DNA from: Thalassolituus oleivorans MIL-1
GTDB lineage: Bacteria; Pseudomonadota; Gammaproteobacteria; Pseudomonadales; Oceanobacteraceae
Direction: 5' to 3'
DNA length: 64,000 nucleotides
NCBI RefSeq assembly: GCF_000355675.1
Contig: NC_020888.1
Coordinates: forward strand, 3,207,501-3,271,500
In this document: one piece after another, positions 18,275 through 22,940 of the stretch
Numbering within the stretch: the first letter of the stretch is position 1
Layout: every line of letters starts with the position of its first letter
Made by a program: the position numbers and the translations under genes
Notes under the pieces: model-generated
The model's database searches: none
Told to the model about the DNA's origin: nothing
Seen by the model: only the letters and a program-made list of their open reading frames with translations

Positions 18275-19465
18275 ATGAATCTAGGTAGCATAGCTGGCAT
18301 CGTACATCGACTGCGCAGCGGATCGATCCCTAACCCAATGGATTGGCGCGCCATCGACCGCTATATTCTTCTATCTGCTCTCGTATTTTTAGCCCCTGCC
18401 TGTTTTGGCATATCCTTATGGGTTACCAACGTATTAGCCCCAGAATACTTAAATCAGTCATTAGTACCCTACATGTTATGGATGTATGGCATTCATATTC
18501 TTGTGTTAATTGGGTTTATCGTTGAAGCCTTCCACCGACGACACTATGCCGATGACTGGCCCTTCTTTGAAAGCTTCATTATTGGCAGCTACATCGTCGT
18601 GATATTGATCAGTGGTTACCTTACCGGTAGCCACTTCACCGAAGGATTACTACTCATATTCTTAGGCGTAAACATTACTTGTACGTTAGCGAATGTTAAT
18701 AAAATACGATTTTGTTACTGGCTGGTTATGCCAACACTGTTGGTGATGGGTATTGCCGATTTCATACCGAGCGTGCCTTACGCCATTCTGTTAGAAAAAC
18801 CACCGATATTACCGGATGGGCACCCAGTGCTTGGATGGTTAATCGTTCGTGGGCTGATCGTTTTCATCCTCACGCTTTTAATTTACCTATGCATTCTCGC
18901 TATGAAACGCTGGACCGAGCGAGAAAGCCTGTATCAAGAAATGTCGACCATTGATGGCTTAACCCGACTTTCCAACCGAAACTTTTTCATTAACCGTGGT
19001 GAGGAAGAAATAGAGCGCGCACAAAAGCAGCATGCTCATCCAATGTCGCCGTTAGCCTGCATTATGATCGACTTAGATCATTTTAAGCGAATTAACGATC
19101 AATGGGGCCACCACGCAGGCGACGAAGTACTGGTTGCTGCTTCCAAAATCATGATGAATAACGCCCGCAGAAATGACGAAGTCGGCCGTTATGGCGGTGA
19201 AGAATTCGCAATACTACTACCAAACACCAATATAAAAACGGCGGAGCGCATTGCCGAAAGACTAAGAGTTAAAATCAGTGAAACTCAGGTCATGGTCGAT
19301 GGAGAGATCATAAAAGTGACTGCGAGCTTTGGTGTCGCCTGCTATCCATCCGATGGAGTCAGCGGTATGGGCGATCTACTGAAAACCGCTGATAAAGCTC
19401 TGTACGAAGCGAAAGAAACTGGGCGCAATAAAGTGGTGGTTGCTTGCTGCAGCGATAAAAAATAA
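18275..19465 (+). CDS. Membrane diguanylate cyclase (GGDEF protein)
   Basis: Makes cyclic di-GMP from two GTP. 396 aa: about six membrane segments (residues 30-210) form an unclassified sensor region, followed by a GGDEF domain (about 225-390) with DGLTRLSNRNFF, the metal-binding DLDHFKRINDQWGH and the active-site GGEEF (307-311). An allosteric I-site RRND (298-301) sits five residues upstream of GGEEF, so product inhibition is expected. All catalytic positions are intact. First gene of the accessory segment, divergent from ftsB; its stop lies in a hairpin shared with the convergent gene. Confidence 0.92.
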   Translation: MNLGSIAGIVHRLRSGSIPNPMDWRAIDRYILLSALVFLAPACFGISLWVTNVLAPEYLNQSLVPYMLWMYGIHILVLIGFIVEAFHRRHYADDWPFFESFIIGSYIVVILISGYLTGSHFTEGLLLIFLGVNITCTLANVNKIRFCYWLVMPTLLVMGIADFIPSVPYAILLEKPPILPDGHPVLGWLIVRGLIVFILTLLIYLCILAMKRWTERESLYQEMSTIDGLTRLSNRNFFINRGEEEIERAQKQHAHPMSPLACIMIDLDHFKRINDQWGHHAGDEVLVAASKIMMNNARRNDEVGRYGGEEFAILLPNTNIKTAERIAERLRVKISETQVMVDGEIIKVTASFGVACYPSDGVSGMGDLLKTADKALYEAKETGRNKVVVACCSDKK

Positions 19466-19487
19466 GCCTTAGAACAATTCTAAGGCT
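19465..19487 (-). terminator. Terminator for the 19494-21661 cluster
   Basis: AGCCTTAGAA (19465-19474) pairs with TTCTAAGGCT (19478-19487) around CAA. On the minus strand it is followed by TTATTTTTT, giving a proper terminator for the minus-strand cluster; on the plus strand there is no T-run. Confidence 0.8.
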
Positions 19488-19493
19488 ATCGAC

Positions 19494-20276
19494 CTACCAC
19501 TTAAGCAAAGATTCCGACGCATAAGCCTCAGACCTAGACTCAATCGTTTTGCCTTCCGCATCAATTTCTTTTTCATCGCGTCTTGAAGGATAGAACCCCA
19601 GCGGCGGTAATTCCTCATCCGGCACAGAGCCGCGAGTGATAATATCGAAGTGATTTAAGTAATCTAAGAAAAACGCCATGACATGGGATTTAATGTCTGC
19701 CGGTGGTGGAGTATCATTTGGCCAACAAGCGGAAGCATCGAAATCGACCATGATGATTAGGTGCTCGGTTAGTTCTGTGCAAAAACGATCAATACGATCA
19801 AAGTTTCCAAACGACAAATATCCCCACAATCGATTATTGATTGTAAGAACCTCTATGTCCGAGGCATGTTTCGGGTAACTATAATCTTTAGAATGAAAAT
19901 CTGGGCGAGGCTTACCACCGCCATATATATCAAACATGCCGGCTTGAATTTTTTCTGAGGAGTTCCAGAACCCAGCGGCTATTCCTAGATCGGATTTTGG
20001 CCAAATCTTCAATGAATACGAAGAGTATCTGCTCGAAGTCTCTTCATTCAACGACTTATTAAAAATATCTAAATATCCCCAAATAGGCGAAATCTCTCCG
20101 GTACAATCGGGATTGGCTCTTACCCCTAAGTCGCTAGAAGAAAACGAATATTGGTACAAAGGCTCGTGCCTAGCCTTGTCGCTACAGGGAACTTGAATTC
20201 TGAACTCATTTATATCGAAACAATAGACGGCGATATTCGCCATATTATCCCACTCTTTTTTAATATTTGTATCCAT
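19494..20276 (-). CDS. Hypothetical protein, last gene of an unrecognised cluster
   Basis: 260 aa, cytoplasmic by appearance (no signal peptide or membrane segment), acidic and rich in aromatic residues. ATG 20276 follows AGGAG by six bases. I recognise no domain. Visible features: an early Asp/Phe-rich strand region (IAVYCFDINEFRIQVP), a WGYLDIFN segment, a central Gly/Pro loop (DIYGGGKPRPDFHS) and a C-terminal run LPPLGFYPSRRDEKE. It lies 36 bases downstream of the 350-aa gene on the same strand and ends at a terminator, so the two are one transcript. A partner or immunity-like role is possible but unsupported. Confidence 0.7.
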   Translation of the reverse strand: MDTNIKKEWDNMANIAVYCFDINEFRIQVPCSDKARHEPLYQYSFSSSDLGVRANPDCTGEISPIWGYLDIFNKSLNEETSSRYSSYSLKIWPKSDLGIAAGFWNSSEKIQAGMFDIYGGGKPRPDFHSKDYSYPKHASDIEVLTINNRLWGYLSFGNFDRIDRFCTELTEHLIIMVDFDASACWPNDTPPPADIKSHVMAFFLDYLNHFDIITRGSVPDEELPPLGFYPSRRDEKEIDAEGKTIESRSEAYASESLLKW

Positions 20277-20312
20277 ACAAATCTCCTAATCGAAACTAAT
20301 AAATCATCATGA

Positions 20313-21362
20313 TTAACTAAGAAGATTCGTATCCGATTTCATATTTCGCCACATTTCAAAAAAACTAATATTCGCTTTGTTTTGAATTTGCTGCTGAAAC
20401 TTAGCATAAACCTTACTGTTACTATCGTCGTATGACGCAGGGTCGAGCATCTGATAGCTTGATGAGAAGGGTGTTCTTACGTTCTTATCTAACACCGCCG
20501 ATGCACCAAATCCGTTTGCAAGCTTCTCCACTACAGAAAATGGCGCATGTGGATCTAATAAACGAAACTCGAATTTTTTTAATACTTGATTAGAACCTTT
20601 AACCAATCGCAAAGCGTCGGTTAAAAGCTTAGCCGATTCATCATAAACATAAACAGTATATTTATCGTATAGCTGCCCTGCCCATTCATTCGCTGTTGCC
20701 GTCCCAACAAGGATATCAGCTAACTCTTGTGGATTAGCGATTTTCCCTCGACCTTCAGGTGATGTGTACTTTTGATCGCCTACAATCACAGCCAACGGAC
20801 TATGGTAAAGATCAAAATCGGTTTTATGCATCGCCTGGTCAGACGATTTCAACATTATTTCTGAAAGCTTGTTCAGATCTAAAATACCCTTTTCATCTTG
20901 TGCTGAGCCAATACGAAAAATCTTATTCTTAATTTCACGACCAGAAGCTTTCGTCCCTTCCCAACTTCCATCGGTGTAACGCATATGAAACAACCCGGCA
21001 CCGACATTGTTTGGATTGTGCGCGAATCCGCGTAGATTATAAATGTAGACCCCAGGCCCTCGGCTTAGCCCCCCCGCATTATCCTGAAAAATTTTATAAA
21101 ATAAACGAACGCAATGCCCAGTAACCTTTCCGAAATCCATGTAATACAAATCTGGCTTGCCTTCAGCTTGCCCAGCATCTTTACCATCTGCCACCGAAGA
21201 AAGTCGCTGCATAATTTCGCTTGCAATTAAATTGCCTGAATCGGTTGCTGGCTTGACATACTCAGCGAAAGGCAAGATCAACTCTGGATCGATGTACACT
21301 TTTCGACCGGCGTCGCTATTGTAATAAGAAAGAAAACTAGAAAAGTCGGGAGATGAGGTCAT
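20313..21362 (-). CDS. Hypothetical 350-aa protein, unrecognised family
   Basis: Start ATG 21362 (MTSSPDFSSFLSYY), six bases after AAGGA; a longer frame from 21389 is less likely. No signal peptide or membrane helix. Apparently two parts: an N-terminal alpha/beta region (1-190) with YYMDFGKVTGHCVRLFYKI, GPGVYIYNLRGFAHN and FDLYHSPLAVIVGDQKY, and a C-terminal region (190-350) with YDKYTVYVYDESAKLLTDAL and FEFRLLDPHAPFSV. No catalytic motif that I know can be assigned. It is preceded by a 56-aa gene and followed 36 bases on by the 260-aa gene, all on the minus strand with good ribosome-binding sites, so this looks like a functional three-gene unit. Confidence 0.7.
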   Translation of the reverse strand: MTSSPDFSSFLSYYNSDAGRKVYIDPELILPFAEYVKPATDSGNLIASEIMQRLSSVADGKDAGQAEGKPDLYYMDFGKVTGHCVRLFYKIFQDNAGGLSRGPGVYIYNLRGFAHNPNNVGAGLFHMRYTDGSWEGTKASGREIKNKIFRIGSAQDEKGILDLNKLSEIMLKSSDQAMHKTDFDLYHSPLAVIVGDQKYTSPEGRGKIANPQELADILVGTATANEWAGQLYDKYTVYVYDESAKLLTDALRLVKGSNQVLKKFEFRLLDPHAPFSVVEKLANGFGASAVLDKNVRTPFSSSYQMLDPASYDDSNSKVYAKFQQQIQNKANISFFEMWRNMKSDTNLLS

Positions 21363-21490
21363 GCTGCGTCCTTTGCATAGAGTGTCCAATTGGTGCGTAG
21401 TTTACCGAATTGAATGTCCAAAGCAATCCTACATCGAAAAAGCATTACGGCAGAACGCAAATACCTTAAGCTTTACAAATAAGACTGAGG

Positions 21491-21661
21491 TTAGTCCTTC
21501 TTCTCAACTGTAATTTCAATGGTTTTACTATTACCAGCAAACCATTTTTGAATGTACAAAGTCCCCATTATTGGAGCCATTCCATCCTCAGGAACCTCCT
21601 GATAACGCACACTGTTTTTCGTTTCTTTCTCGTATTCAAATTTTACTGTCTTCTTTGACAT
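21491..21661 (-). CDS. Small hypothetical protein (56 aa), first gene of the cluster
   Basis: MSKKTVKFEYEKETKN starts at ATG 21661, four bases after TAGGAAA. The whole protein looks like a small beta structure: KKTVKFEYE, SVRYQEVP, GTLYIQKWFAG and TIEITVEKKD are alternating strand-like segments. I have an impression of similar short proteins (KFEYEKETKN-x-VRY, GTLYIQK) in other bacteria but cannot name the family. 128 bases separate it from the next gene of the cluster, enough for an internal promoter, so membership of the same transcript is probable rather than certain. Confidence 0.65.
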   Translation of the reverse strand: MSKKTVKFEYEKETKNSVRYQEVPEDGMAPIMGTLYIQKWFAGNSKTIEITVEKKD

Positions 21662-22049
21662 AACGTTTCCTATCAAATAATTTCTGAGTAAAAATATCGC
21701 GCCATGGGATGGATGATATCATCGCTACCATAGGTTAGAGCTAGAGCGACTACTAACCATCACACATACTCTACGCTGGTCTAGCCTTCATTAATCCAGC
21801 CTCATCTATTCTAAAATTGGCTCATTTGCTCCACCAATGTCCCACATTTTCCAATTTTGGCCCATTCTCCCTAAGAAAGTCTCATTTATTTCCCTAAAAT
21901 CACCAGCAAAGTATAAAATCGGTTAAAGTTCACTTCTATATCCAAGATCAGCTCCATCAGCATAAAACATGTTGGTTTTGACAGCCCCATCAAGATGCCG
22001 GTATGGAAGCCAATGTTATTCGCGACGCTACATCAAGGAATCTCCGCCT
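21662..22049. other. Divergent intergenic region, AT-rich, with short related motifs
   Basis: No gene seen. Contains the inverted pair AAAATTGG (about 21813) and CCAATTTT (about 21860), within a stretch where GGCTCATT, GTCCCACATT, GGCCCATT and GTCTCATT recur. It must hold the promoters of the minus-strand cluster and of the cyclase-FHA gene. Confidence 0.5.
21978..22007 (+). promoter_or_regulatory. Possible promoter of the cyclase-FHA gene
   Basis: TTGACA at 21978-21983 with a poor -10 (TATGGA, 22002-22007) at 18 bases. It lies inside the longer reading frame, supporting the start at 22050. Confidence 0.3.
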
Positions 22050-22940
22050 ATGTCGAATGAATCTGCAGCCATCATGTTCTCTGACGTCTCGGGTAGCTCA
22101 CGCTTGTTCAAAGAAGTGGGCGATGCCGAAGCGCGAGCAATCATCTCGAAAGTCGTCTCCATGATGATGGACAAGACCCAAGCACAAAATGGCACTGTGA
22201 TTAAAACCATTGGCGACGAGGTAATGGCTTCATTTCCAACGGCTCAAGCCGCATTAAATGCTGCGACAGATATTCAAAAAGATATCGACACGCGATATTA
22301 CGGAGCCCCCCTAACAATTCGCATTGGTTTTCACTTCGGCCCTATCATTGAAGAAGCTGGCGATGTTTACGGTGAGGCGGTTAATGATGCAGCCGACTTA
22401 GTAAAAATCGCCAAGGGCGGCCAGATTATAACCAGCGAGCAAACGCGTCAGGCGTTGCCACCTGAATCACAAGATAAACTCGAAGTATTTGATAAAATTC
22501 GCTTAAAAGGTGGCAAAAAAACTGCCGTTATTTATATTGCCGAATGGGAAGACGATCAAGAATCCAACGCGACTATGTTCATGGCGGCCGTTAATACCGA
22601 AATCGCCGCCGCGATTGAAGCTCGCAGCTTACAAATAGAATATGAAGATCAAAATATCACGCTCAGTAAAAATGATGTGCCATTTACCATCGGGCGTGGA
22701 GCGGATGTCGATTTAACCATCGAGTGCAATATGGCATCGCGTAGTCATTGCACCATTGATTACCGACGCGGAAAGTTTGTGTTGGTCGACAAAAGCACCA
22801 ATGGAACCTACCTTGCGGCGGATGGCCGGGAACCGCTTTATTTACGTAGAGAAGAAACTCCACTCATGAGCACTGGCACTATCAGCTTTTCGCCAGAAAT
22901 TGACGAGCCTGGCCCGCATCGCATGCGTTATATTTGTTAA
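22050..22940 (+). CDS. Class III cyclase-like protein fused to an FHA domain
   Basis: 296 aa from ATG 22050, after AAGGAA. The N-terminal cyclase homology domain (about 5-165) keeps both metal aspartates, D12 in IMFSDVSGSS and D56 in IKTIGDEVMASF, and the Asn of the V-N-x-A-A-R signature (N112), but the transition-state Arg is Asp (VNDAADL, D116). A linker leads to a C-terminal FHA phosphothreonine-binding domain (about 212-283) with the canonical IGRG, ASRSH and STNGTYL residues. No membrane segments: cytoplasmic. Whether it makes cAMP is uncertain because of the Arg loss. It may read Ser/Thr phosphorylation, but no kinase gene is in the window. Confidence 0.85.
   Translation: MSNESAAIMFSDVSGSSRLFKEVGDAEARAIISKVVSMMMDKTQAQNGTVIKTIGDEVMASFPTAQAALNAATDIQKDIDTRYYGAPLTIRIGFHFGPIIEEAGDVYGEAVNDAADLVKIAKGGQIITSEQTRQALPPESQDKLEVFDKIRLKGGKKTAVIYIAEWEDDQESNATMFMAAVNTEIAAAIEARSLQIEYEDQNITLSKNDVPFTIGRGADVDLTIECNMASRSHCTIDYRRGKFVLVDKSTNGTYLAADGREPLYLRREETPLMSTGTISFSPEIDEPGPHRMRYIC

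Follow-up and report, generated by a model that had tools for sequence, protein, structure and literature searches.

A two-gene unit of Thalassolituus oleivorans MIL-1 is probably a type VI secretion system (T6SS) effector–immunity pair belonging to an undescribed family. The unit lies in a window of 64,000 nucleotides (the whole stretch of DNA that was analysed) on a chromosome of 3,920,328 bases, and consists of a 349-aa gene, here named A, and a 260-aa gene, here named B. We infer that A is secreted and toxic, that B binds A, and that A is the toxic partner. The evidence, drawn from counts and sequence comparisons, comprises the pairing of the two genes, the placement of relatives in T6SS clusters, the co-occurrence of A with T6SS, one locus at which A has been lost and B kept, and the uneven divergence of both proteins. 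The relevant features of the window are as follows.

19465-19487, minus strand: terminator-like hairpin past B, at the end of a convergent GGDEF gene (stem and T tail).
19494-20276, minus strand: gene B, 260 aa, an acidic protein proposed as the immunity partner, its model resembling Mog1/PsbP (ORF, homologues, model and charge).
19827-20054, minus strand: B residues 75-150, matching the most variable patch in two of the three close pairs compared (binned identities).
20313-21362, minus strand: gene A, 349 aa from its ATG, candidate T6SS effector (ORF, ribosome-binding site and homologues in relatives).
20838-21035, minus strand: A residues 110-175, matching the most variable patch in three of four close pairs (binned identities).
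21491-21661, minus strand: 56-aa gene, the third ORF of the segment, a neighbour judged to be outside the A-B unit (ORF and distribution in relatives).

A sequence-only reading of this segment had described three minus-strand genes of the same orientation with good ribosome-binding sites, and the ORFs and the motifs upstream of the ATGs (AGGA, AAAGGA and AGGAG for the 56-aa gene, A and B, respectively) bear this out. The gene given there as 350 aa is an ORF as described, but its length from the ATG is 349 aa. The 36-base gap between the two larger genes was measured as 36 bp, and the terminator after the last gene corresponds to the stem with a T tail past B; in the region 19300-22100, four terminator-like sites were found, compared with 2.4 expected from shuffles. 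Homologues of all three ORFs exist in other genomes, indicating that these are not chance ORFs. The location of the genes in a variable segment and their resemblance to conflict genes were also correctly recognized. Beside the segment, at 21969-22940, the Pfam scan identified a protein in which a cyclase domain precedes an FHA domain.

The unit comprises two genes rather than the three originally grouped together, and the 56-aa gene is judged to be an unrelated neighbour. Among 55 relatives, 10 carry the 56-aa gene, 9 carry A and 9 carry B; the window genome and G002 are the only two with the 56-aa gene as well as A. In G002, the 56-aa gene is located in the eno-ispD interval (L047), without A or B, and the A-B pair is on a different contig. 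This gene is uncommon across the class, occurring in 2 of 185 genomes including its own, and its product shares 70-84% identity over full-length matches among relatives. It encodes a conserved small protein of 56-57 aa, without a Pfam match, that is found at unrelated places (window 21491-21661; L047:8022-8195). The novel three-gene defence system proposed in the sequence-only reading would fit the single strand, the short spacing and the variable segment, but it is extremely improbable given that the 56-aa gene is unlinked and that PADLOC returned no match for any of the three proteins. Searches of phage and plasmid collections yielded no match to A at E 1e-5, and no defence family was found among the scanned neighbours of the segment. 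The evidence points to competition between bacteria via T6SS, not to anti-phage defence. Nothing significant was obtained for A, B or the 56-aa gene in Pfam, NCBIfam, PADLOC or PHROGs (best rows, for A, E 0.03-0.23); the earlier statement that no known domain or catalytic motif could be assigned holds, and no ordinary known family was matched among the homologues.

The two larger genes belong together, as had been suspected from their spacing. A B homologue lies next downstream on the same strand at all 27 readable A loci, with gaps of -7 to 36 bp, and the outcome that would have spoken against a pair, namely homologues that never co-occur, was absent. These 27 are the distinct A loci with a readable downstream side, collected from wider stretches, iterated profiles and named records; L104 was kept although its 5' end is cut by the fetched stretch, and four A matches that are disrupted or truncated at the end of a contig (L084, L087, L092, and L132) were left out. 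The B homologues were recognized by profile at 23 loci and by profile-profile match (probability 96.7%) at the other 4 (L085, L086, L088, and L112). The two-gene, co-oriented, effector-first layout expected of T6SS effector–immunity pairs is therefore present at every readable locus. In addition, the distances among A proteins correlate with those among B proteins (r = 0.93; none of 5000 permutations as high; Mantel test on 23 of the 27 pairs, with L090, L091, L122, and L123 not included), which fits joint descent of the two sequences.

In the order, a profile built from 12 A proteins matched 12 of 390 genomes, with one doubtful match; in the class, it matched 1 of 369, namely the own genome only. 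The doubtful match (G369; E 3.8e-4, 70 model positions, internal stop) was dropped; we take this ORF to resemble a YigZ/IMPACT protein. Among records that carry a name, relatives of A occur in, for example, Oceanobacter, Thalassolituus, Oleibacter, Aestuariicella, and Endozoicomonas. A search of genome contigs with the 12-row A alignment gave 15 loci, including three new ones (L122, L123, and L132), and a scan of genome contigs with the single A protein gave 28 pattern matches and no relatives. The own genome carries at least three A-B pairs, located in the window, at approximately 1.288 Mb (L042) and in its T6SS cluster (L098/L110). In four close pairs of relatives, both genes show purifying selection (dN/dS 0.12-0.26); between the window genes and their nearest relative, synonymous sites are saturated, so that no ratio is given. 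Purifying selection, together with the weak alpha/beta-hydrolase matches of A described below, would be in keeping with A and B being subunits of an ordinary unnamed enzyme or housekeeping complex. This is very unlikely in view of the patchy distribution, the occurrence of several divergent pairs in a single genome and the linkage to T6SS.

Four of the 27 A-B pairs lie inside T6SS clusters (own genome, G003, G006, and G040), and the other 23 are outside the T6SS stretches seen. In the own cluster, the gene order is Hcp, VgrG, DUF6931, PAAR (identified by tblastn), A, B, DUF6795, and Lipase_3, with ClpV and TssG on the opposite strand beyond a 576-aa gene. The order in G003 is VgrG, DUF6931, PAAR, DUF6795, Lipase_3, A, B, a 255-aa gene, two B-like genes, and then ClpV. 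In G006, the pair and an additional B-like gene are found near ClpV, in a fetched stretch without the spike side, and in G040 the pair is located between TssG and ClpV. Tandem extra B-like genes are thus present in both G003 and G006. Elsewhere, the slot is differently occupied: G004 and G008 have the lipase but neither A nor B, G002 has the lipase and other genes, and the contig of G001 stops after the lipase. No A or B was found in the fetched parts of the T6SS clusters of G173, G236, G274, and G394. The Lipase_3 T6SS effectors of these clusters occupy the same slot as A-B, between the spike genes and ClpV, but A is not homologous to them; it was rejected as a distant relative (hhalign probability 0.1%), and their GHSLGG nucleophile motif is absent from A. 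The window pair forms an islet of its own; the T6SS cluster is elsewhere on the same chromosome and itself contains another A-B pair.

The T6SS sheath gene VipB was found in all 11 order-sample genomes that carry a trusted A, compared with 114 of the 379 without A (125 of 390 overall). By genome, Fisher's test gives p = 2.7e-6, the genomes not being independent (5 of the 11 are from one genus), or p = 2.3e-5 with the doubtful G369 counted; by genus, the counts are 5/5 and 60/142 (p = 0.012). In the sample of 55 relatives, VipB is present in 8 of 9 genomes with A versus 16 of 46 without. The linkage to T6SS that is expected of an effector–immunity pair is therefore seen both in the four cluster pairs and in the 11 genomes with VipB, the exception being G031, a genome outside the order sample that has A-B and no VipB. 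G031, the islets outside T6SS clusters and the overlapping or nearly overlapping genes are what a non-secreted intracellular module would lead one to expect, i.e. a toxin-antitoxin or stress/conflict pair that enters T6SS clusters only because they are variable places. We regard this as quite unlikely: the co-occurrence of A with VipB argues against it, and in toxin-antitoxin pairs it is unusual for the toxin to come first and to be as long as 349 aa.

Two other features of the T6SS genes were observed. A DUF6931 gene lies between VgrG and PAAR in the clusters (L089:9949-10533; L110:2107-2691), and a role in loading is a guess; no literature pairing any two of DUF6931, DUF6795 and type VI secretion was found. 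A VipB-like gene is located apart from other recognized T6SS genes in the own genome (L099:13165-14682, approximately 3.168 Mb) and at L106:2933-4453.

The model of A (pLDDT 83.9, pTM 0.83, 26 sequences) combines helices at the N-terminus with a beta-rich middle section and an alpha/beta half. Judged by their titles, 46 of the 50 Foldseek matches listed for A are alpha/beta-hydrolase-fold proteins; the best E-value is 1.8e-4, with TM of 0.13-0.23 in that row and approximately 0.1-0.3 across the matches listed. The conserved nucleophile-acid-histidine triad of serine hydrolases was not found in the 26-member alignment, in which no residue is invariant, and hence no Ser, Asp/Glu or His, and the inferred nucleophile (elbow) position is occupied by S, A, G or T. 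This makes a classical serine hydrolase unlikely. A had no sequence relatives in the PDB, and its best match in a viral fold library had an E-value of 0.076. Hydrophobic stretches over the cut-off were found at the C-terminus of 4 of the 26 members (L089, L104, L085, and L086), two of which are in T6SS clusters, and the window A has no such segment. None of the 26 members contains a recognizable toxin domain beyond chance level in Pfam; such a domain is not found in every T6SS effector.

B is an acidic protein with a net charge of -15 in the window; among 23 members, the net charge ranges from -3 to -30 in 22 and is 0 in one. Being acidic and lacking any hydrophobic segment above the cut-off applied, B is probably cytosolic. 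Its model (pLDDT 80.4, pTM 0.79, 23 sequences) gave PA3488 (ranks 1 and 3), Tsi3 (rank 2), PA94 and EagT6 as the top fold matches, with PsbP, DcrB, and SciW lower. These matches are weak (best E 3.5e-3, none reaching E 0.001, and TM of at most 0.33 among the matches listed), and lipocalins and others are mixed in; by sequence, solved-structure relatives of B amounted to three chance-level matches. PA3488 is the immunity protein to PldA and Tsi3 that to Tse3, whereas EagT6 is a chaperone. The best matches of the B model are thus the immunity partners of two Pseudomonas aeruginosa T6SS pairs, Tse3-Tsi3 and PldA-PA3488, with which no sequence similarity was found; the scans run gave no sign that A is a muramidase or a phospholipase D. 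Tsi3 and PA3488 act in the periplasm, whereas B contains no hydrophobic segment to serve as a signal. In the available text of the respective papers, the structural neighbours of Tsi3 are grouped with MOG1P and PsbP (PMC3792639) and PA0094 (EagT6) has a Mog1p/PsbP-like fold (PMC4524185); the fold class of PA3488 is not stated in that of PMC9550806.

Since the fold of B also serves a chaperone role, the main rival to the effector–immunity reading is a T6SS accessory pair, in which A would be an adaptor or passenger and B an Eag-like chaperone, together helping to load another effector without being toxin and antidote themselves. The B model matches EagT6, SciW, and DcrB, which are chaperones or of the chaperone fold, and Lipase_3, itself a likely effector, adjoins the pair in both G003 and the own genome. 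Unlike the Eag chaperones (DUF1795; EagT6/PA0094 and SciW), whose Mog1p/PsbP-like fold the B model matches, B lies behind its partner, and no DUF1795 or DcrB Pfam match was found among the 23 B members. The window A contains no transmembrane segment for an Eag protein to shield, most A-B pairs are alone, far from VgrG, PAAR and other effectors, and B is retained where A has been lost (L043 of G006, see below). On balance, we consider an accessory pair rather unlikely.

Two kinds of observation bear on conflict. At L043 of G006, a genome of 84% completeness, A is cut down to approximately its first 22 residues, beside the tail of a B gene; one B at this locus is intact, and another B remnant and genes of the DKNYY type are also present (L043:8742-10975). 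Judging from these sequences, this region is likely to be an orphan immunity array. According to the available text of PMC5361080, immunity genes are retained behind displaced effectors in the T6SS clusters of Vibrio cholerae; L043 is alike, but a single array was found here, and it is outside a T6SS cluster. The second observation is the uneven divergence within both proteins. In three close pairs of A, changes inside and outside the region matching residues 110-175 of the window protein number 32/67 versus 24/368, 27/66 versus 22/290, and 13/55 versus 24/297, whereas the pair L038/L039 shows the opposite (3/66 versus 37/287). In B, changes at residues 75-150 and in the rest number 49/99 versus 25/163 and 28/87 versus 28/157 in two close pairs, and L038/L039 is again opposite (2/75 versus 17/177). 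All of these comparisons are descriptive, the borders of both patches having been set after the binned identities were viewed, and recombination could be an alternative source of the patches.

Under the effector–immunity reading, the T6SS would deliver A, as a toxin mounted on the VgrG/PAAR spike or enclosed in the Hcp tube, into adjacent bacterial cells. B, with its Mog1/PsbP-like fold, would act as an acidic, probably cytosolic antidote that binds A and thus protects the producer and its kin. A more specific proposal, which we hold to be unlikely, is that A represents a new class of T6SS toxin, in which a catalytically dead alpha/beta-hydrolase-like scaffold with a hypervariable face disables its target by binding and not through catalysis; a co-varying immunity protein of the Mog1/PsbP fold would restrain it, and the pairs would have dispersed across Thalassolituus and related bacteria as isolated islets distant from secretion genes. 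If the effector–immunity reading is true, the T6SS weapons of marine bacteria would include a previously unannotated effector–immunity family without a recognizable toxin domain. Profiles of A and B detect pairs that are missed by family-based annotation, including islets outside T6SS clusters, and the uneven divergence of A and B provides a testable prediction of the toxin-antidote contact site.

Several genes recur around A-B pairs. In the genus, several pairs are followed by a third gene, whose DKNYY product is hydrophobic at its N-terminus (L036:9962-10921, with comparable ORFs in L038, L039, L040, and L043); this assignment was made by Pfam on L036 and one L043 ORF, and the window pair has no such third gene. 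The one paper found on DKNYY in combination with toxins appears to be an oral-microbe study. NADAR-domain genes are located near A-B in two genomic settings (L122:9679-10161; L036:6166-6639), which may be chance. In G002, Y1-transposase-like genes flank the A-B pair, and the pair is followed by a gene with an HNH endonuclease domain (L035:6147-11687); one of the transposases was tested and matched Pfam at the cut-off.
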